This document shows positions 1,343 to 29,280 of a DNA stretch of 64,000 nt, piece after piece. Origin of the DNA: Methylotenera versatilis 7 (lineage in GTDB: Bacteria; Pseudomonadota; Gammaproteobacteria; Burkholderiales; Methylophilaceae); NCBI RefSeq assembly GCF_000799165.1, contig NZ_JUGF01000003.1, positions 62,001 to 126,000 on the forward strand, given 5' to 3'. Made by a program: the position numbers and the translations under genes. The number at the start of each line of letters is the position of its first letter. The stretch's first letter is position 1. The notes beneath the pieces are model-generated. The model saw only the letters and a list, made by a program, of their open reading frames with translations, did not search any database and was not told where the DNA came from.

Positions 1343-1415
1343 TCAGTCTTTGCAGTGAAACAAGCCAGTAAAATAGCGGGAAATTAATGAATAAGAAGAC
1401 GTTCAGGGGAAGTGT

Positions 1416-1715
1416 ATGACTTTAACAAAGGCTGATTTAGCCGATTTGTTATTTGAGCAAGTAGGCTTAAATAAGCGCGAGGCAAAAGATATGGTAGAGG
1501 CGTTTTTTGAGGAAGTACGCACCGCTTTAGAAACGGGTGATAGTGTTAAGTTATCTGGCTTTGGTAATTTTGAATTACGCAAAAAGTCTGAGCGCCCAGG
1601 TCGTAACCCAAAAACAGGTGAAGAAATACCGATTACAGCGCGCCGGGTTGTGACTTTTCACGCGAGTCAAAAACTAAAAAGCAGAGTTGAAGAGCATTAC
1701 GCTTCAACAGTTTAA
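1416..1715 (+). CDS. ihfA: Integration host factor alpha subunit
   Basis: Small DNA-bending nucleoid protein that pairs with IhfB and helps recombination, replication and transcription complexes. The 99-aa length matches the family. The HU/IHF fold is clear, with the DNA-minor-groove arm containing [14 protein letters not shown], which includes the intercalating proline. The motif [11 protein letters not shown] is diagnostic for IhfA rather than HU. A purine-rich Shine-Dalgarno (AGGGGAAG) lies just before the ATG. It sits between pheT and a MerR-type gene, the standard arrangement. IHF is a usual cofactor of tyrosine integrases, so it may also serve the island inserted 700 bp downstream; that link is inference. 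Confidence 0.97.
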
Positions 1716-1779
1716 TCTGGCCTTGTACTGACAGCTTTCCAAATTAAATTAGGTTATTAGTTTATATACAAAATTAACG

Positions 1780-2190
1780 ATGCTAGATTCAACACCCAAA
1801 ATGCAATTGCCACCAATCCCGGCCAAACGTTATTTTACGATTGGAGAGGTAAGTGAGCTGTGCGGGGTAAAACCACACGTATTGCGCTATTGGGAGCAGG
1901 AATTCACGCAACTTAAACCAGTAAAGCGTCGCGGTAATCGCCGCTATTATCAACATCATGAAGTGTTACTTATCCGTAAAATTCGTGAGTTGCTCTACGA
2001 GCAAGGTTTCACCATCAGTGGCGCGCGTAATCGTTTAGATGGTGCGGATGTTAAAGCTGAAATTGCATCGCCCATACTTCAAGTTGATGTGCAATCAATT
2101 GCAGATAAACAACCGGAAGCTAACGCCGGGATTGATTTGCTGTTATTTAAAAATGAAATTCGTGCAGTTATTCAACTGCTTCGCACTTAA
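1780..2190 (+). CDS. MerR-family transcriptional regulator
   Basis: A 136-aa DNA-binding regulator. The N-terminal winged helix-turn-helix is typical of MerR (ITIGEVSELCGVKPHVLRYWEQEF, roughly residues 20-43, then RRGNRRYY), followed by a short helical region. No cysteine cluster for metal binding is visible in the C-terminal part, so a metal-sensing role is unlikely. This gene regularly follows ihfA in betaproteobacteria, and its ligand and targets are not known to me. A hairpin terminator begins 38 bp after the stop. Confidence 0.9.
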   Translation: MLDSTPKMQLPPIPAKRYFTIGEVSELCGVKPHVLRYWEQEFTQLKPVKRRGNRRYYQHHEVLLIRKIRELLYEQGFTISGARNRLDGADVKAEIASPILQVDVQSIADKQPEANAGIDLLLFKNEIRAVIQLLRT

Positions 2191-2227
2191 AACACTTTAT
2201 TAAGTTACTTTAACGAATCAATCCTTT

Positions 2228-2254
2228 AATGCCGCTTTAAGCGGCATTAACTTT
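2228..2254 (+). terminator. Hairpin terminator after the MerR gene
   Basis: A perfect palindrome, TAATGCCGCTTTAAGCGGCATTA in outline (9-10 bp arms, 2228-2250), is followed by a short T-rich stretch (CTTTTGG). It likely ends the pheT-ihfA-merR transcript before the tRNA promoter. Confidence 0.6.
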
Positions 2255-2294
2255 TGGACACCCAATTTAAATCCGCTTGTGAGTTAAATCGCTT

Positions 2295-2322
2295 TTGATA
2301 GCATGCGTGTTTGATTTATAAT
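2295..2322 (+). promoter_or_regulatory. Sigma-70 promoter of tRNA-Pro
   Basis: A near-consensus promoter: -35 TTGATA (2295-2300), a 16-bp spacer and -10 TATAAT (2317-2322). It lies about 30 bp upstream of the mature tRNA 5' end. It stays with the intact tRNA copy, so tRNA expression survives the island insertion. Confidence 0.8.
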
Positions 2323-2353
2323 GCTGGCTCACTACGAAACTAGTAGTGCGGTT

Positions 2354-2430
2354 CGGGGCATAGCGCAGCCTGGTAGCGTACATGCCTGGGGGGCATGGGG
2401 TCGCAAGTTCGAATCTTGCTGTCCCGACCA
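2354..2430 (+). tRNA. tRNA-Pro (anticodon GGG), island attachment site
   Basis: A 77-nt gene with encoded CCA. The acceptor stem CGGGGCA pairs with TGTCCCG (one G-T). The anticodon arm is CATGC, loop CTGGGGG, then GCATG, giving anticodon GGG. The T-arm is GCAAG, TTCGAAT, CTTGC. Its 3' half (from 2386) is repeated at 16845, which shows that an integrative element entered here and rebuilt the tRNA. The single difference between the copies (C at 2402 versus A at 16861) falls in the variable loop just before the T-stem; the intact gene has C. Confidence 0.96.
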
Positions 2431-2435
2431 ATAAA
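2386..2435 (+). repeat. Left attachment site (attL), 50-bp direct repeat
   Basis: This stretch runs from the anticodon loop of tRNA-Pro through CCA and ATAAA. It matches 16845-16894 at 49 of 50 positions in the same orientation. Upstream of it the two sequences differ completely. Such a tRNA 3'-end duplication is the normal product of tyrosine-integrase insertion, and it defines the left edge of the island. Confidence 0.93.
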
Positions 2436-2440
2436 AACAA

Positions 2441-2478
2441 TGGCTTGCAGATTTTCAGTTGTAAGCCATTTTGTTTTT
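2441..2478 (+). terminator. Terminator of tRNA-Pro supplied by the island
   Basis: TGGCTT (2441-2446) pairs with AAGCCA (2463-2468), with an imperfect A-rich extension against TTTTGTTTTT. It lies directly after the tRNA and inside the island, so the element brought its own terminator. The presumed original one is now at 16899-16930. Confidence 0.6.
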
Positions 2479-2486
2479 CTGGCTTT

Positions 2487-2513
2487 CGTGCCCTATGTAT
2501 GCCCTAAATAATT
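2487..2513 (+). promoter_or_regulatory. Candidate integrase arm-type sites, left end
   Basis: Two TGCCCTA heptamers (2489-2495 and 2500-2506) lie 11 bp apart and are followed by AATAATT. The same arrangement is found at 16661-16687 near the right end: 23 of 27 bases are identical and only the 4-base spacer differs. Paired heptamers at both ends of a tRNA-integrated element suggest arm-type binding sites for the integrase, or AlpA/excisionase sites. Assignment is inference. Confidence 0.6.
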
Positions 2514-3258
2514 TTTGCTAGGCTTCGTACGTATACATATTTGAACAACAAAAACCCACAATTATGTGGTCTTATGTTTTGCTATTGCTACAAATCTTTA
2601 ATTTATCGCTTTAGCTCTCAACTCCTTGTTTGATGAAAAAATGACTCCTGCGTCGTCAAGCTTCGGGAAGCATTTCCATTTTATGTCTACAACTTGCATT
2701 CCGTCAAAAATAACTCACGTTAAAATACCAACTAGCAGTGCGCACACCCACTTTATTAACGTGGATACGGAATAGACTTTAAAAAGCCCTCTGGTGCTAA
2801 TTTCAATAATCGCAAAGCTGTATCATGATCGGCTTTAAGCCAGTTATGATAATCTGAATCTTGCAATGCAGAAGCCGTTGCCGCTGCAATAAAAGGTTTC
2901 GAAGAGAATGAATAAAGTTTGTTGGTAAAATTTTGATTACCACTAAATATTTTTTGATTTTTTTCCGTTACAAAGTAACTTTGGGTTGAGCAATACCAAT
3001 TTGATAAATGGCAACTTACGGCCCATAGCGGACCTTCTTATGCAAAAATTACTGACTAATAATAAAATATTTTTATCAATGGATTGCTTAATAAAATATC
3101 AACTTGAATCATTTCAATCACTACATGAAGAAGTATTTCCCAGATTTTGCCGTGACTTTTAGCGCAGGTAGGGTTGTTCATATTGAGCAAGATTGAATTT
3201 AATTAAAATGAATTAATATAGCTATCTGAGATTGATAAAAATATAAACAAAACAAAGG
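2514..3258. other. Gene-poor island end with possible degraded ORF
   Basis: No convincing gene lies between the arm sites and the exported protein at 3269. On the minus strand 2756-3037 reads open for about 93 codons. It ends ...HDTALRLLKLAPEGFLKSIPYPR but has no usable ATG, so it could be the 3' remnant of a lost gene. A copy of the GGCCCATAGC motif (3019-3033) cuts into its upstream end. The rest is AT-rich and I see nothing else in it. Confidence 0.3.
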
Positions 3259-3268
3259 GATGACGACC

Positions 3269-3664
3269 ATGCAAAAATACATACGACTAGTTTTAATGAT
3301 AGTTTCATTGTTATTTGCTGCCATCTTACTATCCTTCCCGGTCAAAGCTGAAAGGGGGTTAAATGTGGCTGTTATTGCGCATAGCCTATCCACCCGCGCA
3401 GAAGCGAGAGCTGTTTTACGAAAACAAGGTTGGTTTGCAACGGAAAACCTACGTCAAGCGGATGGGATACTTGTCGTTTGCCGGAGCAGCCTAAGAAACC
3501 CACTTAGCAACAACTACAGAAGCATAAAAGAATTAGACGAGGATGCCGATTCTCAATTGAATATCAGCGGAGCCAATTTTCATATATATGTATTCCGCAT
3601 CAACGACAACCTCAGTGTTGATGAGGTTAACCACGTTCGATATGAAGCGGGTGAAGTCCAATGA
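3269..3664 (+). CDS. Small exported protein of unknown function
   Basis: About 131 aa. It has a clear signal peptide (MQKYIRLVLMIVSLLFAAILL then SFPVKA/E) followed by a soluble alpha/beta-looking region rich in charged residues, with a single cysteine. I do not recognise the family. An upstream in-frame ATG at 3260 sits directly against the AAAGGG Shine-Dalgarno, too close for use, so the ATG at 3269 (9 nt from it) is chosen. It is the first cargo gene at the left end of the island and the only plus-strand one. Confidence 0.6.
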   Translation: MQKYIRLVLMIVSLLFAAILLSFPVKAERGLNVAVIAHSLSTRAEARAVLRKQGWFATENLRQADGILVVCRSSLRNPLSNNYRSIKELDEDADSQLNISGANFHIYVFRINDNLSVDEVNHVRYEAGEVQ

Positions 3665-3746
3665 CAATCATTCACTATGATTGTTTAAAGATATAAAAAT
3701 ATCTTTGAGAGGCTTTTGTGTACACTTTATGTATAGCTTAAAAGCT

Positions 3747-6047
3747 CTAAAAATGTCTATCAGGTGCCTCTAAAAGTTTTAAAAGCTGTTCTACAGGCCC
3801 TGGTCTTGCAAATAAATATCCTTGTCCATAATCACATCTAAACTCGTTCAAAAAATCTTTCTGGTTAACAGTTTCTATCCCTTCAGCAATAATTTTAATG
3901 TTTAGTTTTTGGGCCATATGGATGATAGCTTCACAAAGGACAGCGTCATGATTGTCAGAAGTGAGATTTTGAATAAAAGATTTATCTATTTTTATATAGT
4001 TGATATCAAATTTTTTCAAGTAAGCAAGTGCTGAATACCCAGTGCCAAAGTCATCGATGGCAAGTTCAATTCCTGCATCTCTCACAGCAGACAAAGTATC
4101 TAACACAGTATTGGAGGCTTCTAAAAGAAGTCCTTCTGTAATCTCTAGAGAAATGCAGCCTCCTGGAATGCCTTGTGTTTCGATGTTTCTCATCCAACTT
4201 AAAAGGTTCTCTGGATGATGAAACTGATAAGGGGAAACGTTTATGCTTAACTGAAAGTCAGTACCAAGGTGATTGCGAATTATAGATAAATCTTTTAATG
4301 CTTGTTGCAACACCCATTGCCCTAATGAGTCTATTAACCCTGTTTCTTCTGCGATTGAAATAAAATCTAGTGGGCTAATGAAGCCTTTTGTAGGATGATC
4401 CCACCTAATCAGCGCTTCTGCTTTAGTGATACTTAAGTCTTTTAGGTTGATAATTGGCTGGTAATAAACAACGAATTCGCCATTATGAATTGCACTTCTT
4501 AAGTCATTAGCAATTGATAATCTTTTTGATGAATCAGCTTGCATCGATTGTGTAAAAAATTGATATCGATTGCGGCCAAGTTTTTTAGCTTCATACATGG
4601 CCTGATCGGCATAGAGGAGCAAGGCTTCAGAGCTTTGGCTATCATCTGGATATAAAGTAACTCCTATACTCGCTGAAATAAAAAATATGTGGTTATCGAT
4701 AGAAAAGGGTTTTTCGAGTTCTGTTAATATTTTTTGACAGGAGTTTTCCAAGCTGTAAATGTCTTTTAATTCGGTTAGTATCACCATGAACTCATCCCCG
4801 CCAATGCGTGCGGTGGTATCAGATGATCTAACGCACCCACTAATACGATCAGCAGCATCTACCAATAATTTATCGCCGATGGAATGACCTGATTGATCAT
4901 TAACGCGCTTGAAGTTATCCAAATCAATGTACAGTAGACCTACAAGTAAATTAGTTCTACTTGCCTTACCTAGTGCTTGCTCTAAGCGGTTGTGTAGCAA
5001 GTGTCTATTGGCTAATTTGGTAAGATAGTCGAAATTTGCCTGATACCAAATTAGTTGTTGAGATTCGGCCTCTTTTTTCTTAATAGTTACCTTAAATCGA
5101 TAAAATCTGACTATGCCTAATATAAGTATTATGGATATTAGGCCAAGTGCTGCGTTGAGAAAATAGTAATTTTTTGTATCAGTAACTTTCCATTTTTCGA
5201 GCAATTCCTCACTGTCAGGTTCAATTACTGCCAATCCCTTTTCGAGGATTGAGGCAAGCTCTGGCTGATCACTCCTAACAGCCATTGAAACCTCAGATGA
5301 AAAGGGTGTTAGTCCTGATTTTTCTGTAAACTTTAAGCGATTAAAAGCTATATGATAATCGACGACCATTTCGTTACCTATGTAAGCTTCAACTGTCCCC
5401 GCTCTTAATTTCTCAAATGCTTCATCTGCTAAATCAACATAGACTAATTTTATTTTCGGGTAATTTTCACTTACTTTCTGCCCAATCAAACCATGTTTAA
5501 AAATTGCAACACGCGCATTGTTTAGTTGTTCTAAAGACTTAATTTTTGATTGCTTCTCTATATTTTTATTGGTATAGATTGCTAAAGGAAAAACTAGAAA
5601 TGGTTGATTGACTAGGCGGAAATTAGGGTTTTTCAGATTTTTATTACTAACCCCTGAAATGATGTCTGCATCCTCTGGGGAGATATCATCTACATAATTA
5701 GTGATGGTAAAATTGATGTGTAATATATCCGCTAAACGAGTTAAGTAGTCAATCGATAAGCCACGATGATCTTCACTTTCCAGCTTGAACTCAATTGGCA
5801 TCCATCCACTTTTAACGGCTACTTTTAAATTCTGGTTTTTTTTAAGCCATTCTTTCTCATTGGGCGTGAGTCTGGCTTCTAACTCTTGAGTACGATTAGT
5901 TTTTTGAGAGCTGCTAATTTTATCTGATGTTATAGTTTCGGCAGCAATGAGAGATAACTGAGGCCAGGATAATAAGAAACAAAGAGTCGATAGCTGAATT
6001 ATTAATTTCAGAAAATTTTGATTATAAAATGGATTGAAGCTTTGCAT
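3747..6047 (-). CDS. Membrane sensor protein with SBP_bac_3, GGDEF and EAL domains
   Basis: A 766-aa c-di-GMP signalling protein. Order of parts: signal sequence (about 10-36); periplasmic solute-binding domain of the amino-acid type (SBP_bac_3, about 70-290); one membrane helix (about 294-316); GGDEF domain (LYIDLDNFKRVND, intact GGDEF at about 415-419); EAL domain with intact signature (EAL near 544, then DDFGTGYSAL, IKIDKSFI, AEGIET). Both catalytic motifs look whole, so synthesis and breakdown of c-di-GMP are both possible, and which one dominates cannot be told. The periplasmic domain should bind a small ligand such as an amino acid. It lies in island cargo, and c-di-GMP control fits with the autotransporter 2.3 kb upstream (inference). 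Confidence 0.92.
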   Translation of the reverse strand: MQSFNPFYNQNFLKLIIQLSTLCFLLSWPQLSLIAAETITSDKISSSQKTNRTQELEARLTPNEKEWLKKNQNLKVAVKSGWMPIEFKLESEDHRGLSIDYLTRLADILHINFTITNYVDDISPEDADIISGVSNKNLKNPNFRLVNQPFLVFPLAIYTNKNIEKQSKIKSLEQLNNARVAIFKHGLIGQKVSENYPKIKLVYVDLADEAFEKLRAGTVEAYIGNEMVVDYHIAFNRLKFTEKSGLTPFSSEVSMAVRSDQPELASILEKGLAVIEPDSEELLEKWKVTDTKNYYFLNAALGLISIILILGIVRFYRFKVTIKKKEAESQQLIWYQANFDYLTKLANRHLLHNRLEQALGKASRTNLLVGLLYIDLDNFKRVNDQSGHSIGDKLLVDAADRISGCVRSSDTTARIGGDEFMVILTELKDIYSLENSCQKILTELEKPFSIDNHIFFISASIGVTLYPDDSQSSEALLLYADQAMYEAKKLGRNRYQFFTQSMQADSSKRLSIANDLRSAIHNGEFVVYYQPIINLKDLSITKAEALIRWDHPTKGFISPLDFISIAEETGLIDSLGQWVLQQALKDLSIIRNHLGTDFQLSINVSPYQFHHPENLLSWMRNIETQGIPGGCISLEITEGLLLEASNTVLDTLSAVRDAGIELAIDDFGTGYSALAYLKKFDINYIKIDKSFIQNLTSDNHDAVLCEAIIHMAQKLNIKIIAEGIETVNQKDFLNEFRCDYGQGYLFARPGPVEQLLKLLEAPDRHF

Positions 6048-6305
6048 CTAATGTTCGCTTACCTAGTATCAAGGTTCGTTTAAAGGACACATCGGTATTT
6101 AGTTATATTAAACGATAATATTATTACTCATATGACAATTTGTTATTGATTAAAATATTTTTTGAAAAATCACCGTAAATTTATGGTGCTAAAACAACTA
6201 CAATGATATTAGGGTGTTGGATTTAACACAGACTCATCCATAGTGTAACGTTTGGTGACTTACCGCTTTGTCATCATAGTTGCCAGATAAAGCAAGTTGG
6301 CCGCA

Positions 6306-6352
6306 GACTGCTTAGGGCCGTTAAATACCGACGGTTTCGGCCCAAAGCAGTC
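6306..6352. repeat. GGCCCAAAGCAGTC hairpin repeat, copy 1
   Basis: Two 15-bp arms, 6306-6320 and 6338-6352 (CGGCCCAAAGCAGTC), pair with one mismatch around a 17-base loop. The element sits in the 431-bp gene-free stretch 6048-6478 between the GGDEF/EAL gene and the next cargo gene. Related copies lie at 3019, 8238/8281 and 11667, all between cargo genes. The remainder of 6048-6478 is AT-rich and shows nothing else. Confidence 0.65.
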
Positions 6353-6478
6353 ATTCGTTCGAGCCATCACAGGCTTACCAATTCTGACAAATCTAGTAAC
6401 TGGATTCTTAAGTTTCAAATCTCCTAGACCAGACTTAAGTTACTAAATGTGTGCGATATGATACAAAAAGAAAATTTC

Positions 6479-7189
6479 TTAGTTAAGATTTCTTCTACCA
6501 TTTAGACAGTTAAGTAGATGCTCTTTTTCAAATGAGGTCTTGTAATAAGGAAGCCTTGAGATTATGTGATCGTAAACACTAATTTCAGAGTGTGGTTTTA
6601 ATTTGATCTGGTCAATTTCTTTGATTCCAATTGCTTCTGAGTCCCCAATTTCAATTATCTCGCCTGCAACAAACAATTCAATATCCATTCCAGTATCTAG
6701 TAGTTCTTGTGGATTTCGGTTAGTAATTGCTATTTGATCAAACAATAATTTGAACGCTTCATAACCTTCTTTACTTAGTTGTATCGTCATATTGATATAT
6801 GGGCTTTTTTCAAACTTTTTGTTTGCAGCTACAATGAATCCAGCCCAATTTTCACTTGGTGCAGTAGGGCTATCACTGCATGTTATGATAAACGTAATAT
6901 CACAGAATTTGGTATAGTCTTCATAGTCGTTGTTAGGAAAATCCATAACGCCCTTTGCTTTTAGAGACTTATAGGTGCCGGTCGCATGAATAGACATATC
7001 CTCCTCAATAATCTCTTGAAGCCATACATAATTCGAGCTTGAAATCTTAGGATTTTCTTTGCGATTTATTTTTATGCTATTAAATGCATTTGGTTTTACT
7101 AAGCGCGTAAGAATCTTCAAGTGTCTGTATGTAAAAAATAATAATAGCGATATTGTTAATAAAAGTGCAATTAATGCGAAATCATACAT
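6479..7189 (-). CDS. Membrane-anchored protein of unknown function
   Basis: A 236-aa protein with one N-terminal membrane helix (MYDFALIALLLTISLLLFF) and a soluble mixed alpha/beta domain from about residue 50. The soluble part contains two cysteines (FCDITFIITCSD) and several acidic stretches. I do not recognise a family. It is the last gene of a three-gene minus-strand group (8083 to 6479) with gaps of 24 and 15 bp, which suggests cotranscription. The group lies in island cargo between two copies of the GGCCCAAAGC hairpin. No start problem: the ATG is preceded by an AGGAAT stretch. Confidence 0.6.
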   Translation of the reverse strand: MYDFALIALLLTISLLLFFTYRHLKILTRLVKPNAFNSIKINRKENPKISSSNYVWLQEIIEEDMSIHATGTYKSLKAKGVMDFPNNDYEDYTKFCDITFIITCSDSPTAPSENWAGFIVAANKKFEKSPYINMTIQLSKEGYEAFKLLFDQIAITNRNPQELLDTGMDIELFVAGEIIEIGDSEAIGIKEIDQIKLKPHSEISVYDHIISRLPYYKTSFEKEHLLNCLNGRRNLN

Positions 7190-7213
7190 ATTGCATTCCT
7201 TTTTGATTGAGTA

Positions 7214-7651
7214 TCAATTTTGATTAAAGATAAGTTTTGTGTAAAAACGAACCTCATTGAACAGATCTTTTAAGCTTCCTTGATAAAGCCATAATAACCC
7301 ACAAATTCCATACAAACTTAAAGATGCAGGAAAGTTCACATCTCGCATCACCAAAGCTTCTGGATTCTGATAGCTCCAGTAAATCCAATAAGAACCATCC
7401 ACAGCAAACCAAGTAATTAATAACATTGCGGGAAAAAACTTCCAAAATCGTTTTAGAATTATTCGGAGTGACCACGGCGCAAAAAAATATGTAATGGTTG
7501 CCATGATAACGCTTATTGGAAAATCCCAATCTGGCGCATTATAGAAAATTGAGCCAATAATTAATAAACTTAAACCTAAGCTAAATGTGATCAGCTTCCA
7601 AGGGCGAGTATATTCATAAATGTTTAGCTTAAAGAATTCTGTTGCCCTCAT
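7214..7651 (-). CDS. Small integral membrane protein of unknown function
   Basis: A 145-aa protein with about four hydrophobic segments (around 19-37, 46-64, 72-90 and 110-125) rich in Trp and Tyr. No known family recognised. It is the middle gene of the unknown trio, 24 bp upstream of the anchored protein. A membrane partner for its neighbours is plausible but unproven. Confidence 0.55.
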   Translation of the reverse strand: MRATEFFKLNIYEYTRPWKLITFSLGLSLLIIGSIFYNAPDWDFPISVIMATITYFFAPWSLRIILKRFWKFFPAMLLITWFAVDGSYWIYWSYQNPEALVMRDVNFPASLSLYGICGLLWLYQGSLKDLFNEVRFYTKLIFNQN

Positions 7652-7666
7652 TACTTTCCTAGATAT

Positions 7667-8083
7667 CTATTGGGTTGGTAGCGTTAAGGCGCCTAGCTTC
7701 TGGACATCAGCTACAAGCTGTTCAAGGGTAAGAGAATCACATTCCTCGCTAAAACGAACGTTTTCTGAACGCATTTCAGGTGGGGAAAATGCCTTCTCTA
7801 CATAGCTTAGAGAAGTCCTGAGCCAAAAGGTAGAAGATGGGTGTGACGAAAAGTTATAAGATAAAAAAACAATAGCTTTTGCCATGTGTTCTTTCTCCCA
7901 GCAACCGAAAGTTCCGCGCAAATCGTTTAGGCACTTTGAGATTAAATTTAATATATCTAATCGAACTCGATCGATATTCTGATTTTGATCAAGTCTTTCA
8001 ATGAGCTCATCTACCTCTACCATGACTAATGCCCCTTTGCGCCTCTTTTGGAATTCAGCCATAGCTCCCCGTCCATGTAACAC
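7667..8083 (-). CDS. Small soluble protein of unknown function
   Basis: Up to 138 aa, mostly helical, with no signal peptide or membrane segment. Motifs such as VDELIERLDQNQNIDRVRLD look like a helical domain, but I do not recognise the family. Three starts are possible: ATG at 8083, at 8062 (a GGGGAG sits only 2 nt away), or at 8023, which has AAAGGGG about 8 nt upstream and gives 118 aa. The start therefore remains open. First gene of the unknown trio. Confidence 0.5.
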   Translation of the reverse strand: MLHGRGAMAEFQKRRKGALVMVEVDELIERLDQNQNIDRVRLDILNLISKCLNDLRGTFGCWEKEHMAKAIVFLSYNFSSHPSSTFWLRTSLSYVEKAFSPPEMRSENVRFSEECDSLTLEQLVADVQKLGALTLPTQ

Positions 8084-8237
8084 GGGGGGCTATAGATACG
8101 TATATTTCGTAGCCTAACAGGCTAGCTTAGATAATTCAAATTGTGAATCTTAGAGGTATTGAACTTGAGTAGCAAAAGCTCTAATCTACGTGCTAGATTG
8201 CCTTCTCGATATGGGCTCGAACTCATTTAATTGAGAG

Positions 8238-8295
8238 GCTGCTATGGGCCGCAAAATGCAACCTTGAATGAGAGAGGTTCGGCCCAAAGTAGCCA
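8238..8295. repeat. GGCCCAAAGC hairpin repeat, copy 2
   Basis: Arms 8238-8252 and 8281-8295 (CGGCCCAAAGTAGCC) pair with two imperfect positions around a 28-base loop. It occupies the 302-bp gap between the unknown trio and the autotransporter, and is the same family as the copy at 6306-6352. Confidence 0.6.
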
Positions 8296-8332
8296 CTCAT
8301 CACAGTTTAAAAATCATAGTTGCTCCATTAGA

Positions 8333-8355
8333 AAAGCCCCAATTAAGGGGCTTTT
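8333..8355 (-). terminator. Terminator of the autotransporter gene
   Basis: AAAAGCCC (8333-8340) and GGGCTTTT (8348-8355) form an 8-bp stem with a 7-base loop. The A-run on the plus strand gives a U-tail to minus-strand transcripts. It lies 31 bp past the autotransporter stop. Confidence 0.75.
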
Positions 8356-8385
8356 AACTAGCATCTAATCAGCGGAACCAATTAA

Positions 8386-11300
8386 TTAAAAATCAACTCG
8401 CACCCCTACATTGCCTCCCCAAACATCCGCAGAAGCGCTAGTCAAACCTTTCTCGTAACTCAGACTGGCAAATACAGATGAGTTAAGGCCAAGTCGTGCA
8501 TTTAGACCGCCGCCAAATTGCAGGCTGGTACCCATTGATTCCGAATCAAACCGGACATTGCTCGCAGTGATGCTGCCATCGCTGAGGAATTCATGTAACA
8601 GGTTGGCTTCAACGTATGGTGTCCACTGTCTGTCGATGTTAGTGGTGATGGTTTTCAGCACACGTCCGCCGAATCGCCCACGCAGACTTTCTCCACCATT
8701 TAAATCGACATCAATGCTGTCAATATCTGTAAATTTGTCAAAACGGATACGTTGGTAACTCAGTTGTGCTTGTGGCTCTACAATCAAACCATTACCCATA
8801 TCAAATGGATAACCGCCTTCAAGTGAAAGACCCCAGCCCCAGCCTTTTGGGTCACCGGTTTCACCGCGTTGGCTGGTGGTTATTTCTGACGTGTAGCGCG
8901 TACCCTGTGCTACCGCATCCAGATACCAACCAGCAGCAGCTTGATAGGTGGAGGTGAGTGCCAGTGTTGTACCGCGTAGGTCAACCTTGGCACTAGATTC
9001 ATCAGCATTGAGTTTGGATCCACCGATGCTTAATGCACCGCCGATGCGTAGTTCAGCGCCATCGGCCATGTCACGTCCAAACAGATTGCCCCCCGCTTGC
9101 ACGTACCAGATGTCTTGATCGTAGCCTGAAGCACTGTTGCCAGAAACATCACTGCTGGAGCCTTGCGTTCTTAAGAAGACTTCTTTACTGCGTTGTTCAG
9201 TACTGCCGATTTTATTCTGCAGTGTTGCTGTTTCACGAAGCTCACCCAGTCGTTTGTGTACTGAATCAAGCAGCGATGCGCCATAACGCACTGCGCCAGT
9301 TGGCATGGCCTGATAGCCGGCAACTTGCGGTACTGCAACAGGATTGCCGCTGCTGTCGATTAGAGACTGTAGACGGTAATCCCAGAATGGGGTTGCACCC
9401 AGTAAAGGGTCAACCTCACCTGCTGCAGAAGTAGCTGGGTCAAATGCTTTTAATATGTATTGGTATGGTCCAGCTACAGCATAGCCACCTGCCAATTGAA
9501 AGGTACTTGCTGTGCTGGTGCCACCTACTTGGATAATGGAAATACCATCGGTGTTGCTTGCGCCAGTTAATGCACCTGCGCCGCCAGTATTAATGACATT
9601 CACCACTGTGTTACCAGTGGCGTTGCCACTGATAAGCAAGCGGTCGGCAGGTGAACCAGTGCCAGCTAATACGGCTTCCATCTCTAGTACACCGCCGCTG
9701 CCAATATAGTTACCGGCAATCAGTAGTGTGCCGATAGAGTTGCCTGGAGCGATAGTACCACCAGCAAAGTTGGTGGTGTCACCCACTTGTCCTATGCCTT
9801 GCAGACGTCCGCCATTTACTTGCATGGTGCCGCCCAAGATACCGTTCACGGAAAGTGTGCCAGCATTGACGTTTGTTATGCCGGTGAAGGCGCTGCTGTT
9901 AGCCGTAAGCGTAGTTAAGCCTGAACCATTTTGGTTAATGGTACCTAAACCGGAAATGATGGAATTAAAGTTGAAAGCCGCGCCCGTATGGTTGAAATTG
10001 ATTCGACCCGTCCCTGGCCCGAAGTTCACATTGGATGCCACCCATGTACCTGCAGCTTGTGCGATACCACCTTCCGCACCACCGATATTTAGCACACCTG
10101 TGCTGCCAGCCACTTGTCCCAGTACCACATTGCCATCTACTTCAATTTTACCGTCATTGGATAACCTGATATCGCCGCGGGTTGTGTTGGTCGTGCCAAC
10201 ATTCATGTCGCCAATACTTGTGAAGCTCGATCCGCCACCAGTTACATTTAAAAGGGCTGTATGAGCTGCAGTCCATAAGTTATAGCCGCCGATACGTGCG
10301 GTATTCGTTTGATAAGTAGCGCCGTCTAATACATCTAGCGACCCAGAATAAAGTGACAGTGCTCCGGTGTTGGTCCAATTGGTCCCCGTGCCAGATAGAG
10401 TCGTACTCGCAAGGACACCTGCTCGCGCTGCAGTTCCGGAGCTATGAGTGTCAGAAAGTACTGTGGCACCGCCACTAACATTAACCTCCGACCGACTGCC
10501 ACCAGAAGCAGCTCCCCCAACTTGAATTGAACCCGCATCCAGTAGTGTGCCTGCACCCGAGACATTGGTAACCCCATAAAAACCACTACTCACTGCGCGT
10601 CCTGAATTAAGTGAGTCTAAACTGACTTGAGCACCTGCCCCAATGTTGAGCACCCCGCTAGTATTGCCTGTAGTACCGACCCAAACTGTACCAGGCCCGT
10701 TCATGTTCAGCGTTGTTGTTGGGCCTATCACAGTCATCACTGCCGCCGCGCCGCCACTACCCGCGATAACTGCATTATCATTCACCGCTGTAGTAGTAAT
10801 TGTCATTTGCGCGCCATCGGTTAGGCGTAATTCGCCCGCATTAACCGTAAGGATATGAACATCGCTTGTACCAGTAAGTGTTTGAGTGCCACCATTTAGT
10901 GTCAAGTTACCGGTGCCGTTTATGTTACCCGCATAGGTATCGCTGGCATTAGTGATGGTGAGTGTTTTCGTCCCCAAGTTAACAATACCAGTATTGCTGC
11001 CAGATAGTGATTTAATTGATGTGCCGGTTGATGTAATACCAGAAATATCAAAAGTGCCGTTTGCCACGACTTTGCTCGATTGAGCAATGCTGCCCGCGCC
11101 CGTTAAGCTGAGTGTGCCGGCGTTGATAGTGGTCACGCCGGTATAGGTGTTGATTCCTGTCATCTCCAGCGTACCAGCACCTTGCTTGTCCAAAGCATCA
11201 GCGCCGCTCAAAATGCTGCCTTCAACCTGCGTTGTACCAGCACCTGTATTATAGTCAGCAGCATTTGCTGGTAATGCTGATGCCAGCGCGACTCCTACCA

Positions 11301-11424
11301 AGAGTGGTAAAGCGTTTGCAACTACCGTGGCGCTGCCGCGCTTACCACACGTCCGTGTGATTTCCGATACTGCCACCCATGCGCCCAGCGCTACATTCCA
11401 TACACTTCTGTACGAACGATTCAT
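8386..11424 (-). CDS. Type Va autotransporter with ESPR signal and beta-strand repeats
   Basis: About 1012 aa. It begins with an extended signal peptide region (ESPR: MNRSYRSVWNVALGAWVAVSE, then KRGS), a hydrophobic core and a cleavage site near PANA/ADY. The passenger is Gly/Ser/Thr/Asn-rich and built of beta-helix repeats, including autotransporter-associated strands such as GAGTLEMTGINTYTGVTTINAGTLSL and a second set near residue 500. A junction region precedes the C-terminal beta barrel (about 740 to the end), which finishes with the expected aromatic residue (VRVDF). The ATG at 11424 is chosen over 11436 because the ESPR begins there and GGGAG lies about 6 nt upstream. GC is higher than in neighbouring cargo, a sign of separate origin. 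A surface adhesin is likely; no protease triad was recognised. Confidence 0.93.
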   Translation of the reverse strand: MNRSYRSVWNVALGAWVAVSEITRTCGKRGSATVVANALPLLVGVALASALPANAADYNTGAGTTQVEGSILSGADALDKQGAGTLEMTGINTYTGVTTINAGTLSLTGAGSIAQSSKVVANGTFDISGITSTGTSIKSLSGSNTGIVNLGTKTLTITNASDTYAGNINGTGNLTLNGGTQTLTGTSDVHILTVNAGELRLTDGAQMTITTTAVNDNAVIAGSGGAAAVMTVIGPTTTLNMNGPGTVWVGTTGNTSGVLNIGAGAQVSLDSLNSGRAVSSGFYGVTNVSGAGTLLDAGSIQVGGAASGGSRSEVNVSGGATVLSDTHSSGTAARAGVLASTTLSGTGTNWTNTGALSLYSGSLDVLDGATYQTNTARIGGYNLWTAAHTALLNVTGGGSSFTSIGDMNVGTTNTTRGDIRLSNDGKIEVDGNVVLGQVAGSTGVLNIGGAEGGIAQAAGTWVASNVNFGPGTGRINFNHTGAAFNFNSIISGLGTINQNGSGLTTLTANSSAFTGITNVNAGTLSVNGILGGTMQVNGGRLQGIGQVGDTTNFAGGTIAPGNSIGTLLIAGNYIGSGGVLEMEAVLAGTGSPADRLLISGNATGNTVVNVINTGGAGALTGASNTDGISIIQVGGTSTASTFQLAGGYAVAGPYQYILKAFDPATSAAGEVDPLLGATPFWDYRLQSLIDSSGNPVAVPQVAGYQAMPTGAVRYGASLLDSVHKRLGELRETATLQNKIGSTEQRSKEVFLRTQGSSSDVSGNSASGYDQDIWYVQAGGNLFGRDMADGAELRIGGALSIGGSKLNADESSAKVDLRGTTLALTSTYQAAAGWYLDAVAQGTRYTSEITTSQRGETGDPKGWGWGLSLEGGYPFDMGNGLIVEPQAQLSYQRIRFDKFTDIDSIDVDLNGGESLRGRFGGRVLKTITTNIDRQWTPYVEANLLHEFLSDGSITASNVRFDSESMGTSLQFGGGLNARLGLNSSVFASLSYEKGLTSASADVWGGNVGVRVDF

Positions 11425-11436
11425 ACTTGCTCCCAT

Positions 11437-11924: not shown

Positions 11925-12137
11925 CTAAGTCATTTTTCTTAAAGCATCACGTTGACTACGTAGCAATTTATTTAACTCTTTAATTTGCTGATGTAAGCCA
12001 CCCTTAAACGCATTACGTGCAGACTTAGCCTTACCTTCAACTGTGTTTGCGCCTGTGCTATTTTTCCATGGTTGCCATTGCTTTATCAACTCTGCTTGTC
12101 GTTGTCGCTGCGCTAATGTCCATTGTCTGGCTGCCAT
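11925..12137 (-). CDS. Small basic island protein with STGxxTxxGKA motif
   Basis: 70 aa, strongly basic, with W.PW..STGANTVEGKAKSARNAFKGG. From memory this resembles the widespread STGP(K/R)TxxGKAxSxxNAxxHG motif of small proteins of unknown function in islands. The N-terminal 26 codons overlap the end of the upstream gene by 80 bp in another frame, so translation may be coupled. It is the last gene of the mobile-element core. Function unknown; nucleic-acid binding is plausible from charge alone. Confidence 0.6.
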   Translation of the reverse strand: MAARQWTLAQRQRQAELIKQWQPWKNSTGANTVEGKAKSARNAFKGGLHQQIKELNKLLRSQRDALRKMT

Positions 12138-12681
12138 TACACACCTCTAATAGTTCGTTTGGTTGATTTTGATTTTCCCCCGCGCACGAAGGATCAATTT
12201 CATGCGCACTTAATTGCGCACCGTTTCCATTATTTACCTGTTGATGCCCATGGGAGATGTTTGCCTGTTTCACAAATGCTACTTGTTTGGGATATTTCAA
12301 TTCAATTAGTGCCTGAATCGTTGAACGGCTTTGACTTTGAGCTTTCAGGGCCAAGTTCATAAATATCCCATAGTTCTTAACATACTCCTGACTTACTGAC
12401 CTTCGAGCCAAGCTTACAAATATAGTTTGTAATGCATGGGCTTGACCCACTAGCATTGCTTCCATATCTGACATATCACCAGACTGTACATTATTAATTT
12501 TACTATTTAAAACATTTATTAAGTCAGATAACTCTAAGTTTGGACACATTGACTTTGAAATAGCTTCGGAAGTTATCGCACTCATCATTGAAGCCGAATT
12601 TAGCAGTTTTGCTTCAGCTGATATTCGAGTAGATGTTGATGTTGATGTTGATGTTGAAGCTATTTTAGTTTTAATGGTCAT
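12058..12681 (-). CDS. Island core protein of unknown function (207 aa)
   Basis: The N-terminus contains a Ser-Thr repeat coded by a short tandem hexanucleotide, then helical segments (DMEAMLVGQAHALQTIFVSLARRS, LALKAQSQSRSTIQALIELK) and PKQVAFVKQANISHGHQQVNNG. I recall similar proteins beside integrases in beta- and gammaproteobacterial islands, but no function. It starts inside the last codons of the HTH gene (11-bp overlap, 12671-12681) and overlaps the 70-aa gene by 80 bp, so the three form a tight unit. The tandem repeat near the start could change length by slippage. Confidence 0.65.
   Translation of the reverse strand: MTIKTKIASTSTSTSTSTRISAEAKLLNSASMMSAITSEAISKSMCPNLELSDLINVLNSKINNVQSGDMSDMEAMLVGQAHALQTIFVSLARRSVSQEYVKNYGIFMNLALKAQSQSRSTIQALIELKYPKQVAFVKQANISHGHQQVNNGNGAQLSAHEIDPSCAGENQNQPNELLEVCNGSQTMDISAATTTSRVDKAMATMEK
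12628..12655. repeat. Hexanucleotide tandem repeat (GTTGAT)n
   Basis: About four units of GTTGAT in tandem in the 5' coding part of the 207-aa gene, encoding Ser-Thr pairs. Six-base units keep the frame, so slippage would vary length and not switch the gene off. Confidence 0.7.
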
Positions 12682-13291
12682 ATCGTATTACCTCACTTGA
12701 GTAGTGTTGTTGAATAATTGGGCAAGTAGATGGTAAATCTATAAAGTCACCGTTAATCGGTGTAGAAAGCTGGCTATTTATAGTCTCTATCGCACCGCTA
12801 ATCGGTGTTAGTGCCTTACTCTCTATTCCGATTATCGGTGCGATTTTGGCCTTAGCTACCCCGATAATCGGTGAAGTCTTATTGATTGGAGTAAGTCTGC
12901 ATCTTTGATATTTCCTTGGTTCAATATCTAGTCCGTCATAAACATCTAAACTAAACCAACCAATTGCAAACCATGCAGCTTGACTGCATGGTGGCATCAT
13001 TCCTTGCCTCGTTTGCTTTAACAAGCCACTTTTAATTAAAGCTTTAAGTGATCGACTAATCGTATCGTTTGATGTCCAACCTAAAGGCTTTAAATATTTC
13101 ATGCAACATACAAGTTTTCCATTATTTTTTCCGTTATATTGTGCAGCTATATCAAATAGTAATGAACGAGCTGCATGACAAAGCCCTCTATATTCGACAC
13201 TATGAATCACATTGTGGGGCAACGCAGTAAACCGACCGACATCTAACTTATCAGCGTTGGCTTTTTTTTGCTTCTCATAACTAGCGCCCAT
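12671..13291 (-). CDS. HTH replication-initiator-like protein with PIIG repeats
   Basis: About 206 aa. The N-terminal half looks like a winged-helix domain (ARSLLFDIAAQYNGKNNGKL...SNDTISRSLKALIKSGLL), as in plasmid-type initiators and island HTH proteins. The C-terminal part holds four (T/A/S)PI(I/N/S)G repeats, about residues 135-185. At the DNA level each repeat is a palindrome of the type CCGATAATCGG. The ATG at 13291 is chosen because GGAG lies 7 nt upstream; the longer frame would need a TTG. It lies between alpA and the 207-aa gene in the core. A replication or DNA-binding role is inference; the HTH is what I see. Confidence 0.6.
   Translation of the reverse strand: MGASYEKQKKANADKLDVGRFTALPHNVIHSVEYRGLCHAARSLLFDIAAQYNGKNNGKLVCCMKYLKPLGWTSNDTISRSLKALIKSGLLKQTRQGMMPPCSQAAWFAIGWFSLDVYDGLDIEPRKYQRCRLTPINKTSPIIGVAKAKIAPIIGIESKALTPISGAIETINSQLSTPINGDFIDLPSTCPIIQQHYSSEVIRYDH
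12748..12873. repeat. Four palindromic iteron-like sites inside the HTH gene
   Basis: Sites at 12748-12762 (CACCGTTAATCGGTG), 12793-12807 (CACCGCTAATCGGTG), 12826-12840 (TTCCGATTATCGGTG) and 12859-12873 (CCCCGATAATCGGTG). The palindromic core CCG-N5-CGG is constant. Start-to-start spacing is 45, 33 and 33 bp. They code for the PIxG repeats, but third positions are conserved too (always ...ATCGG), which suggests selection on the DNA. Confidence 0.7.
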
Positions 13292-13435: not shown

Positions 13436-13684
13436 CTAGCACTCCAATTTACCAGTGCGTTGGAAATGCAAATTTACAACTAACGCTTTAATTTCTATAT
13501 CGGTTTTCCCCGCAATTCGGGCATTGATTATGGCTTCAATCTCGTGACTAGGCCAACCTACTGCCCTAATACCAATATGTATTGGCTTGGTAATAAAACC
13601 TTGTGAGATTTGCGCATAGAAAGTAGAGCGTGAAATACCTAAATTTTCTTTTGCTTTAGAAAGCCGCTGAATGATAATCGCCAT
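13436..13684 (-). CDS. AlpA-family regulator / excisionase
   Basis: About 82 aa (MAIIIQRLSKAKENLGISRSTFY...). It has the MerR-like helix-turn-helix of AlpA proteins with the usual GWPSHEIEAIINARIAG ending, in which the WxxxEI motif is characteristic. AlpA proteins activate integrase expression and promote excision of P4-type elements. The start at 13684 is preferred: AAAGGGG lies 7 nt upstream, whereas the longer 92-aa frame has no clear site. Its position between the integrase side and the rep-like gene fits an excision control role. Confidence 0.82.
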   Translation of the reverse strand: MAIIIQRLSKAKENLGISRSTFYAQISQGFITKPIHIGIRAVGWPSHEIEAIINARIAGKTDIEIKALVVNLHFQRTGKLEC

Positions 13685-13884
13685 GTTAGTACCCCTTTGG
13701 GTTTTGTTGAACATGGCGCTATTGGAGCATCTGAGATAAGGTCAGATAAGTGGGTAGGTTAAGAAAACCTATCATATAAACAATGTGTTTTAAATCAGGG
13801 TTTTGTTCTAAGGTGTGGGTGTGTTTACAAGTAACTTTTTACAAAAATCGTTATAAATCATACTGATAGACACTGGGTAGGTTA

Positions 13885-14502
13885 TTAAGCCGAGGACTTG
13901 GGAACACCTCCGCCAGGACTCCAGTTTGCAACTTTTCCGCACTCTTCTACTGCGTTTTGTACAGGATTACCATCATCATCAACTAGGCCAAATTCAGCAG
14001 CATGTTCTCTAATCCATTTTTCCAGCGCCTGTTTTGGACTGCGGTTACCAGCATTTGTGACTGCTTGCCATGCCCTAACAGTCATAGCTAACTTTGGTGC
14101 ATAACGAGGATTTTTGCGATCCAGATAGTCTGCTGAATCTACTGGTGTTGGAAAGAAAAAGCCTGTTTTAAACCCTCTTAATGTAAGCCATGTTTTTAAT
14201 GACTCGACTTCAACAGTAGAGTCTTTAACAATAATAGAGTCTTCCACTACATCATATGAATATCCATTTGTGTCATATAGTTTCACTTGTGAAATTTTCC
14301 CGTGTATATCACCTCGTTTTAATGCATGAGTTATTGCGGTTAGTGCAGCATGATAGCCAAATGGTTGCTCATGAATTTGCCAGTCAAAGCAATTTGCTCC
14401 TTCTTCACTAGATGGATTTATTCCAATAATCAGGCATGCGGCTTGATCTAAACTTAATTCGTCACTAAGCCGCCAATAGTCCAATTTATCTAAATTATTC
14501 AT
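13885..14502 (-). CDS. Conserved island protein of unknown function (205 aa)
   Basis: A 205-aa soluble protein. Visible blocks: YWRLSDELSLDQAACLIIGINPS at the N-terminus; NPRYAPKLAMTVRAWQAV in the middle; SPKQALEKWIREHAAEFGLVDDDGNP and CGKVANWSPGGGVPK at the end. I recall this combination in proteins coded next to integrase and AlpA in proteobacterial islands, always without assigned function. No catalytic motif is evident. It is separated from alpA by 200 bp and from the restriction remnant by 58 bp, all on the minus strand. Confidence 0.7.
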   Translation of the reverse strand: MNNLDKLDYWRLSDELSLDQAACLIIGINPSSEEGANCFDWQIHEQPFGYHAALTAITHALKRGDIHGKISQVKLYDTNGYSYDVVEDSIIVKDSTVEVESLKTWLTLRGFKTGFFFPTPVDSADYLDRKNPRYAPKLAMTVRAWQAVTNAGNRSPKQALEKWIREHAAEFGLVDDDGNPVQNAVEECGKVANWSPGGGVPKSSA

Positions 14503-14560: not shown

Positions 14561-15151
14561 TCAAGGCTTACTGTTATAACGCTCTGGAATAGCTTGAGAG
14601 GGTAAGCCCTCAGCTACTGCCTTGAGTGCGTTGCTTTGATGCTCTCTTAACTCTTTCTTAGCCTTGAGTTTCACACCCTTGCTAGGTGCGTAGACACTTC
14701 AATCAATCGGGCTATTCTCAAGCTCAGCTAAGCCTATACGTTGCGTACTTACACTTTGCCCTTGCAGTGCAGCTTCAGCGTGTTCGCTCCAATCTTTGCG
14801 GGTGCTATCAACAATCAATCTACGGGTGAATGCCTTTTTACCAGAGGCGGTAAAGAAAGAGTCAATGTCTGACTTTTGGATGCGGTAGTTTTCATCATAG
14901 AACTTACATTGAATTGCACAGAAGCCTCCACCCTCCGCAAGCTCTGCGACCAGGTCAATGCCTACATCGCGAGTATCAATACCTTGTAAGGTTGCCCATT
15001 CGGCATACGTGAACACATCTGAGAAATTAGGGGAGTAGGTCGGGTGATTCTTGAGAAAGTCTTTTATCAGCAGCTCGAAATAAGTACCTTTTTCACGCTC
15101 GGTTTTTGATGCTTTACGGTAGCTAGTGAGTAGCTCTTTTAATGCGGGCAT
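14561..15151 (-). pseudogene. Broken restriction endonuclease-helicase (N-terminal remnant)
   Basis: The first 150 codons encode an Mrr-like nuclease domain as at the N-terminus of large DEAD/DEAH restriction-helicases: a PD-(D/E)XK core with GIDLVAEL...FCAIQCKFY, then SDIDSFFTASGKK. The frame stops at TGA (14699-14701), but the same frame continues for 45 codons with SVYAPSKGVKLKAKKELREHQSNAL, which is the family's link to its helicase (LREHQ is the Q-motif-like region). The family, as I remember it, has Trp at the stop (ENSxIDW), so TGG changed to TGA. The frame then ends at 14561-14563 without any helicase motif. This is a decayed defence gene in the island's variable slot. Whether the 150-aa product is still made is unknown. 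Confidence 0.7.
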
Positions 15152-15233: not shown

Positions 15234-16655
15234 TCATGCAACCTTTAAACTCACTACATTATCAGCCTTGAGTATCGCCTCTATTCGATCACCAAGTTTT
15301 TGCCATGCCTCGCGTTTTTCGTCTGCATATTCATGGTGAAGATAATGCCGCCGTACTTTGCTGCCAGCTAAAACGTGGTTTTGGCATCTATCAATCACAT
15401 CAAGTGATATTTTTAAGTCACCTTGCATCATCGTAGCACCCGTTCTACGTAAGTCATGAGGTGTCCAGTCATCTTCACCTAAAACTAGCGTGTTGTTATT
15501 TACGCGTTTGCTCAAATCTTTTGTGCGTTGTTTAAACTGTGTTTGCCTATCACCAACCTGTTTGCTAACCGATTTAACACACACATGATTCTTATTATGT
15601 ATGCTGTTGTTCTTAGCTGGAAACGCCCACTTTTCCCCGCCTGTAAGGGCGTAAAGCTGCTTAAATTGGTCTAAAGCAAAATCAGATAAATAGACCAATT
15701 GTGACTGCTTATTTCTACGAGTGCCTTTTACATTTTCTTTAGGAATAAACCATGTGTATGCTTCAAAATCCACATGTTTCCACTCGGTCATTAGTAGTTC
15801 ACCAATTCGGCTAAGTGTGCTTAGGCATATCCATAGTGCAATCTGCGTTTCCTTAATCAACGGACGGTCTACTTCATATTTATTGGCAGCATCTTTATAG
15901 GCAATTGCAGAGGTGATAAAAATATCATTCAACTTGCGTATTTCATCAACACTTAAAATACGAGTGCGCTCCTCTTCGTAGTCGCTAGGGATCAGCTTTT
16001 CAATATCCACTAATTCGGCTGGGTTGCCATCAATCATTAACGCACGGTATGGCTTGCGCTTTTCTGCCCACCTAAGCATCTGTCCAATGTCTTTATAAAG
16101 CATGATTGCAGTGCGCGTTTTACTTTGATTAAACACTGCTCTCAATGCTTCTAGCAAATTGCTTTCTGATAACTCCCTTAATGGAATATTGCCCAATTTT
16201 GGCAAGGCGTGATTCTTAAATGTCCTGATAATCATTTCATTGTTATCAGTACGTCTTACACCATCTTTAATCCAAGCATCAAATAAATCTTGAAAGGTTA
16301 GGTTTTTAGCGCGTTCCACTTTTTCAGCTTCTACCTTAGCAATTACTTCATCTTTCTTTTGCTGTAGGTTTTCGGCTTGCTGGGCTTGATAGTCAATACC
16401 AGTTTTTGCTAATGCTTGGATAGTTGCATTTAAGGTTTTTGCATCAGCCAATGACATAAATCCACTACCGCTTATTCCGTATGGTTTAGGTAGGGCGTAA
16501 TCTATTTGACGGCCTTCAACTACATATCTAACTAACCAAGTTTTAATTCCGCTAGTGGACACTCGAATATACAACCCCCGATCAACTGCAAATTTATAAG
16601 GCTTCGCAATCGGCTTCTTAGATTCAATCTCTTTTACTGTAAATGATTTTGCCAT
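15234..16655 (-). CDS. P4-type tyrosine integrase
   Basis: 473 aa. An N-terminal arm-binding domain (DUF4102 type: KPYKFAVDRGLYIRVSTSGIKTW), a central core-binding domain (about 110-220) and a catalytic domain. Catalytic residues seen: Arg in LSTLSRIGELL (about 280), His-x-x-Arg in HDLRRTG (about 400) and Tyr in VRRHYLHHEYAD (about 438). It is coded inward from the right attachment site and would insert the element into tRNA-Pro. The paired TGCCCTA repeats lie 6-32 bp before its start codon and overlap its translation start region, so the integrase may repress itself when bound (inference). Confidence 0.95.
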   Translation of the reverse strand: MAKSFTVKEIESKKPIAKPYKFAVDRGLYIRVSTSGIKTWLVRYVVEGRQIDYALPKPYGISGSGFMSLADAKTLNATIQALAKTGIDYQAQQAENLQQKKDEVIAKVEAEKVERAKNLTFQDLFDAWIKDGVRRTDNNEMIIRTFKNHALPKLGNIPLRELSESNLLEALRAVFNQSKTRTAIMLYKDIGQMLRWAEKRKPYRALMIDGNPAELVDIEKLIPSDYEEERTRILSVDEIRKLNDIFITSAIAYKDAANKYEVDRPLIKETQIALWICLSTLSRIGELLMTEWKHVDFEAYTWFIPKENVKGTRRNKQSQLVYLSDFALDQFKQLYALTGGEKWAFPAKNNSIHNKNHVCVKSVSKQVGDRQTQFKQRTKDLSKRVNNNTLVLGEDDWTPHDLRRTGATMMQGDLKISLDVIDRCQNHVLAGSKVRRHYLHHEYADEKREAWQKLGDRIEAILKADNVVSLKVA

Positions 16656-16844: not shown

Positions 16845-16894
16845 CTGGGGGGCATGGGGTAGCAAGTTCGAATCTTGCTGTCCCGACCAATAAA
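16845..16894 (+). repeat. Right attachment site (attR), partial tRNA-Pro copy
   Basis: A second copy of the tRNA-Pro 3' half plus ATAAA, with one mismatch (A at 16861). It lacks the 5' half and promoter, so it is not a functional tRNA. It marks the right edge of the island. Confidence 0.93.
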
Positions 16895-17245: not shown

Positions 17246-17321
17246 AAAAAAAGCCTTATAAAACGGTAGGTTACATTTTAGTTTCACAGATAATCACAGA
17301 GTTATCCACAGATTTTGTGGA
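17246..17321. repeat. DnaA-box repeat element, copy 1
   Basis: About 76 bp, roughly 80% identical to 29204-29280. It begins AAAAAAAGCCTTATAAA, continues GGTAGGTTACA and ends with a perfect DnaA box TTATCCACA (17302-17310) followed by GATTTTGTGGA. The surrounding 16931-17749 has no gene I can support and is very AT-rich. Confidence 0.75.
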
Positions 17322-29203: not shown

Positions 29204-29280
29204 AAAAAAAGCCTTATAAATTGGTAGGTTACACTTTTAAGACACAGCAATCCACAAAGTTATCCACAGATTTTGTGGAT
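29204..29280. repeat. DnaA-box repeat element, copy 2
   Basis: A second copy of the element at 17246-17321, same orientation: A7-GCCTTATAAA, GGTAGGTTACA, then TTATCCACA (29260-29268) and GATTTTGTGGA. It fills the middle of the 309-bp gap 29116-29424 before mtnA. The rest of that gap is AT-rich without visible signals. Confidence 0.75.

Follow-up and report, generated by a model that had tools for sequence, protein, structure and literature searches.

Why should the 3′ end of a small helix-turn-helix (HTH) gene in an integrated genomic island carry four phased palindromes that also encode a repeated peptide? This question is raised by a 64,000-nucleotide stretch of the Methylotenera versatilis 7 genome (hereafter the window), in which four palindromes of the form CACCG-N5-CGGTG, two of them imperfect, occupy positions 12748-12873 within the 3′ end of a gene that we term REP. 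In gene order, iterons 1 through 4 are located at 12859-12873, 12826-12840, 12793-12807 and 12748-12762. Each of the first two has one imperfect arm, and iteron 2 is the weakest with 9 of 12 arm matches. The spacing is 45/33/33 bp on the forward strand, or 33/33/45 bp in the direction of REP, exactly as located and measured by a first-pass annotation of this DNA. The CCG-N5-CGG core alone is not rare (9 occurrences in 64 kb versus 5.5 expected), and the rarity resides in the clustering. Specifically, ACCG-N5-CGGT is found at 20 places in the 2.5-Mb genome, two of them inside this array, and no second cluster of it is present in that genome. All island sites with at least 10 of 12 matches fall within the array, whose score was reached by none of 60 dinucleotide shuffles.

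We judge it highly probable from sequence comparison that this array is a lambda-ori-like iteron origin of the integrated island, which REP would open after excision. An iteron origin tied to the HTH protein had been proposed in the first-pass annotation. That link is strengthened by comparison with relatives (the array, its spacing, its half-sites, an AT-rich element and weak similarity to initiators), and the binding and initiation steps stay predictions.

REP (12671-13291, reverse strand) is a winged-helix-like initiator candidate of 206 amino acids. Its start is likely the ATG at 13291, upstream of which a GGAG can be read in the sequence; a TTG at 13309 is also open. The protein has no Pfam or PHROG match, and none of nine family members matches NCBIfam. 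Among 74 family members scanned, 16 match PHROG 186 ('DnaD-like helicase loader') and fewer match 'replication initiation' PHROG families. The best match of REP to profiles from the PDB is 4pta, a replication initiator of the RepA_N type, and this match is weak (E 0.016); RepA_N is not among the Pfam families matched by the 74 members at E ≤ 0.01. Phage_rep_O (PF04492) is likewise missing from those families, and it weakly matches two of nine members (best E 0.027). A direct relation to lambda O was considered, and profile comparison did not detect one (hhalign of the REP profile against lambda O alone, probability 1.2%). Judged by these searches, REP is small and winged-helix-like, and neither a helicase nor a primase domain is detectable in it.

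The island itself measures 14.5 kb and targets a tRNA-Pro gene (2354-2430, forward strand; ARAGORN). Its ends form a 50-bp direct repeat with one mismatch, such that one copy coincides with the 3′ end of the tRNA gene (2386-2435) and the other (16845-16894) lies just outside the gene for a tyrosine integrase (15234-16655, reverse strand; PF00589, PF13356 and PF22022). Also on the reverse strand are a cargo gene for an Mrr-like restriction endonuclease (14699-15151; PF13156, E 3.5e-40), a gene without Pfam or PHROG match (13885-14502), and an AlpA regulator (13436-13714; PF05930, E 2.6e-7), giving the gene order integrase, AlpA and REP. A reverse-strand gene that we call 'QAN' (12058-12681) overlaps the stop codon of REP. 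By eye, it displays a QANIxxGxQQVNNG-like motif; the window copy has no PHROG match and nothing above the Pfam cut-off, and a member from another locus (L088) likewise has no Pfam match. Additional reverse-strand cargo consists of autotransporter and GGDEF/EAL genes (8386-11436 and 3747-6047). No capsid, primase or relaxase domain was found by Pfam in the 12 larger island ORFs. The window contains 14 DnaA boxes versus 10.9 expected, none of them in the array or the AT-rich element, and those closest to the array are at 11763 and 17126.

At E ≤ 1e-3, 19 of 187 genomes of the bacterial family carry a relative of REP. At E ≤ 1e-6, relatives occur in 35 of 399 genomes of the order, 20 of 369 genomes from the class and, with a larger profile, 28 of 398 from the phylum. 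The samples are not disjoint, and they contain the genome of the window. From the family, order and class searches, 40 neighbourhoods (15, 23 and 2, respectively) were picked by hand, mostly the best-scoring. Later loci came from IMG/VR (34 loci) and from named genomes, where the best 80 of 109 loci were retained; their titles point mostly to beta- and gammaproteobacteria. Of these 114, 113 have a REP ORF, and the 98 non-redundant ones were tested. Because the later query came from a beta/gamma subgroup, the resulting 141 loci lean to these two groups. With this sampling, REP relatives are frequent in integrase islands of beta- and gammaproteobacteria. By tblastn, plasmid and phage collections yield one record each: an island with capsid genes in a Cupriavidus megaplasmid, and a 16-kb Pseudomonas element annotated with a 'replication protein O'. 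The family is thus nearly absent from such collections, which leaves autonomous replication a prediction.

When genes of 43 neighbourhoods were clustered by BLAST, the integrase recurred in 41 loci and AlpA in 26. QAN follows REP immediately in 12 loci, 11 have an HTH_39 protein, and the next cluster, a GGDEF/EAL protein, is present in 8. A scan of ten neighbour clusters, which leaves aside five clusters of three loci each, turned up no replicative helicase, loader or primase. Single loci differ: an annotated primase adjoins REP in Pseudomonas phage vB_Pae_U1, and toprim and helicase genes are near REP in the Cupriavidus island.

The array recurs across this family. Our array test seeks sites with two 6-bp arms and a 5-bp spacer, requires that 9 or more of the 12 arm positions match a common half-site, and compares each locus with dinucleotide shuffles. 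It was written on the first locus set (60 shuffles for loci, 40 for controls) and left unchanged thereafter. The array beats every shuffle in 27 of 43 loci of the first set, versus 1 of 42 upstream and 3 of 41 downstream control regions, and 16 loci fail. Similar results are obtained for the loci fetched later, with 53 of 98 passing and 45 failing (controls 3 of 91 and 5 of 93). Pooled, 80 of 141 distinct loci pass, versus 12 of 267 control regions. In the phylum-wide sample the test is passed by 16 of 28 loci, or 13 of 24 without the four seen before. Site spacings peak at 22-23, 32-33, 42-45 and 52-54 bp with a best period of 10.75-10.8 bp; the associated p-values are descriptive only because related loci are not independent.

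Several loci depart from this pattern. At one (L110), the 'downstream control' some 726-800 bp 3′ of REP passes the test with 32/43-bp spacing and is perhaps a displaced origin. An IMG/VR subgroup (L220, L221, L223 and L232) carries another array with 23/74/34-bp spacing. Three distant loci of the phylum sample (L250, L254 and L258) have five-site arrays with spacings of 22/32/32/44, 22/32/22/45 and 22/33/22/45 bp, respectively, and are without the AT-rich pattern described below.

The half-sites change from locus to locus, whereas those of one locus resemble each other (85-97% agreement at positions -7 to -3). This agreement is partly forced by the 9-of-12 threshold, which does not apply to the C found at position -4 in 69 of 74 loci. 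The distance between half-sites grows with the distance between the proteins (Mantel r 0.32, equalled in 0 of 2000 permutations), as might be expected of cognate pairs and, in part, of shared descent. On incompatibility as a possible driver of half-site change, the evidence is mixed: two co-resident pairs of loci (L179/L180 and L135/L147) have half-sites common to both members, and the two loci of another genome (G072; L008, refetched as L080, and L026) differ in their half-sites by eye.

Alignment of loci on the last site exposes a second element directly 3′ of it, with a consensus of approximately CCTTTATAgATnTACCA. In the window, this AT-rich sequence, which the first-pass annotation had not mentioned, reads CTTTATAGATTTACCA (12731-12746, reverse strand), abuts iteron 4, and encodes FIDLPS; we presume it to be the melting element. 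It belongs to a longer stretch 3′ of iteron 4 (12648-12747) that is 69% A+T, versus 59.5% for the island. A regular expression for the element matches 96 of 141 loci, leaving 45 without it, and matches 1.2% of shuffles and 3 of 266 control regions. Among the 52 array-verified loci that carry it, 45 have the element begin 17-18 bp beyond the first base of the last 17-bp site. The strict form is lacking in 22 of 74 array-verified loci, sometimes by a single base (L080). A relaxed form is present in 109 of 141 loci, in 10 of them inside the ORF; some of these are probably chance matches, and the window reads DFIDLPST. Averaged across loci, the 20 bp that start at the centre of the last site are 13 points richer in A+T, and the 80 bp after that are richer by 4-8 points. 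The intervals between sites also contain peaks of 7-8 points, and outside the array there is little change.

The same element performs poorly as a stand-alone finder of such loci, and this use was rejected. Its exact form, CCTTTATADATNTACCA, is present in only 12 of 141 loci. The 398 genomes of the phylum sample contain it once, versus twice for the reversed pattern used as control, and the 28 REP-bearing genomes among them not at all. Among the matches listed for IMG/VR, 77 were examined, one of which is the match in the phylum-sample genome, and four more were too short. Only 4 of the 77 adjoin REP, and just one of the four is on a contig not known before, such that exact matches in IMG/VR are mostly due to chance; a stricter pattern gave no matches. 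In the phylum sample, the regular expression matches 3 of 28 loci (2 of 24 new ones) and 1 of 27 upstream controls. Because it is nearly missing from that sample, we regard the element as a beta/gamma feature rather than a family-wide one, and as a predicted marker of the origin only together with REP.

The location of the array relative to the REP reading frame varies. Three or more phased sites are present in 74 non-redundant arrays. Nine of these are wholly within the ORF, 52 extend across the stop codon and 13 are downstream, and thus 65 touch or pass the stop. On a tree of the conserved domain in which many forks are unresolved, the 'inside' state requires at least five changes; strongly supported branches force two.

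Could the array instead be an operator through which REP controls its own gene or the next one? Winged-helix proteins are often regulators, a few REP relatives have MarR-type Pfam matches, and the window array is located approximately 70-190 bp upstream of the next gene (12681). Nevertheless, no good site is present within 400 bp upstream of the REP start in any of 73 loci, and in the window there is not even a site of at least 9 matches in that interval, leading us to reject autoregulation. Elsewhere in the elements, sites are no more numerous than expected (42 in 73 loci versus 43.3, the latter figure including the window), and the array persists in two loci (L101 and L114) whose next two and three called ORFs, respectively, point the opposite way. 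Moreover, four phased sites with a fixed, abutting AT-rich element are not readily explained by an operator, which we therefore consider unlikely.

Plasmid partition systems present another precedent, since they include arrays of sites bound by small HTH proteins, and REP might bind its array as a centromere-like site for segregation. No partition ATPase was encountered in the ten neighbour clusters scanned, however, and the PHROG matches of the REP family are to replication proteins. A partition site is accordingly a very improbable identity for the array.

A codon comparison in which the window and three close homologues (L080, L082 and L081) were paired in all six combinations reveals whether DNA or peptide is the more constrained. 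Identity at third codon positions is 0.75-0.95 in the sites, versus 0.42-0.71 in codons between and after the sites and 0.36-0.58 in the HTH part, which bears out the conservation of third positions noticed in the first-pass annotation. In the comparisons that involve L081, amino acid identity in the sites is only 0.45-0.50 whereas third-position identity is 0.75-0.90. The array DNA is thus constrained more than the peptide that it encodes. The three homologues provide no case of the PIxG peptide being coded by unrelated codons. Regardless, the suggestion that peptide and DNA repeat evolved together is not supported, given that 65 of 74 arrays lie at, across or beyond the stop codon and that site amino acids change in L081 while third positions stay. 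Because the array is found in the gene, across the stop or downstream, we interpret the sites as DNA elements and the PIxG peptide as a by-product. The opposite notion, that a PxxG-repeat tail is the selected feature and the DNA repeats merely follow from repeated codons, can draw on the window, where all spacings are multiples of 3 and every site reads P-x-x-G, and on wholly intragenic arrays, where 19 of 26 spacings are divisible by 3 versus 43 of 185 elsewhere, but it is rejected as having almost no chance of being correct, since it is contradicted already by noncoding arrays (one locus, L100, has 33/33/45-bp spacing wholly downstream of the stop) and by the L081 pairs.

If the array is an origin, as we favor, then the following sequence of events can be envisioned. 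Excision of the island would be driven by the integrase and AlpA. REP would bind each palindrome as a dimer and load all four sites, which are separated by near-whole helical turns, and this loading would strain open the AT-rich element abutting the fourth site. Replication proteins supplied by the host or a helper phage would be recruited next. This scheme takes as its starting points the array geometry, helical spacing, half-site behaviour, AT-rich element, frame independence and integrase-AlpA-REP gene order, and extends them to binding, melting, replication and host or helper dependence as predicted steps. In the lineage of the window, the stop codon lies beyond the origin, and therefore the origin is also translated, giving the PIxG repeats and FIDLPS.

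More tentatively, and with more doubt than conviction, we propose that these loci represent an undescribed class of replicon of integrase-AlpA islands and satellites. Its origin would comprise a variable four-site iteron 'lock', read by REP and, in beta- and gammaproteobacteria, joined to one strongly conserved opening sequence, the near-CCTTTATAgATnTACCA element. A conserved partner, either REP itself or a replication factor of the host, would read this sequence, perhaps in single-stranded form. Islands like that of the window would begin replication without a primase, helicase or loader of their own. As part of the same joint proposal, the stop codon may have moved across the origin more than once, such that selection on the origin would dictate C-terminal amino acids of the initiator in some lineages.

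The best-known point of comparison is phage lambda, whose ori is placed inside gene O by the open-access passages of PMC6022878. When subjected to the array test, lambda gene O yields four arm6-N5-arm6 sites with A+T-rich DNA just 3′. The two systems are therefore alike in having four palindromic iterons of this form in an initiator gene and AT-rich DNA on the 3′ side. They differ in spacing (20/24/23 bp in lambda, 33/33/45 bp in the window) and in that lambda has a dedicated loader, P, beside O, whereas no common loader gene was found in the REP-family clusters scanned. Furthermore, most arrays of the REP family extend across the stop codon or come after it, and a specific AT-rich sequence is common to beta/gamma members.

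RepA_N systems offer a second parallel. In the passages available, the ori of the RepA_N plasmid pSK41 lies inside rep (PMC5703833), and the origin of PLE, a phage satellite of Vibrio, covaries with the RepA_N domain (PMC7145576; PMC8263062). These systems, too, have winged-helix initiators with iterons, and the top match of REP among PDB profiles is a protein of this kind. PLE, however, uses a serine recombinase and an intergenic ori, whereas the REP family has a tyrosine integrase, often AlpA, and a one-sided AT-rich element.

Among phage satellites, Gram-negative PICIs are described in accessible portions of PMC6092414 as carrying int, alpA and a replication gene followed by an iteron origin. 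The window island resembles them in its integrase and AlpA. In PICIs, two iteron sets bracket an AT-rich region of the ori and there is a pri-rep module, whereas the REP island has a single set on one side and a short HTH-type protein. PICMIs, which are minimal satellites, have a core of integrase, AlpA and replication gene, according to the text seen of PMC10803314, and REP islands are similar in having few core genes of these same kinds. PICMIs carry a DUF3987/DUF5906 primase and adjoin fis, in contrast to the window island, which is in tRNA-Pro and has neither such a primase nor a capsid gene among its 12 ORFs scanned. Neither the REP family nor the AT-rich element is described in the open-access passages of the sources consulted (PMC10803314, PMC4936722, PMC6092414, PMC12595487, PMC7145576, PMC5703833, PMC6022878 and PMC8263062).

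Many genomic islands with an integrase and AlpA display no visible means of replication (compare the accessible text of PMC12595487). A recognizable origin and initiator would tell which islands can replicate once excised, and would constitute a replicon that can be cloned and tested. The changing half-sites at near-fixed spacing form a natural series in which the evolution of initiator and origin specificity can be followed. Since the AT-rich element is retained in beta/gamma loci while the iterons diverge, the question of what reads it can be put to a direct test.

One metagenomic IMG/VR contig (L203, positions 1-11200) closes on itself through a 125-bp overlap with one mismatch, giving a circle of 11,075 bp; of 18 whole IMG/VR contigs, it is the only one to close. 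It carries genes for AlpA, REP with its array, a phage capsid, a prohead protease, a portal and an integrase. This closure suggests a circular or concatemeric form for at least one such element, and by its gene content L203 looks like a small capsid-forming satellite. Capsid genes are carried by cf-PICIs, and L203 and a further locus, L029, are like them in this respect.

Two minor observations concern repeats. In Pseudomonas phage vB_Pae_U1 (L028), four near-perfect copies of GGTACAGAAACTGTACC followed by TTCTTAGATATACCA are present at 4163-4310, where they span the end of the 'replication protein O' gene and the start of the next gene. In the window, two exact repeats of 17 and 22 bp, one of which contains TTATCCACA, occur in the same order and at the same distance at 17246-17321 and 29204-29279, which suggests a duplicated intergenic segment.
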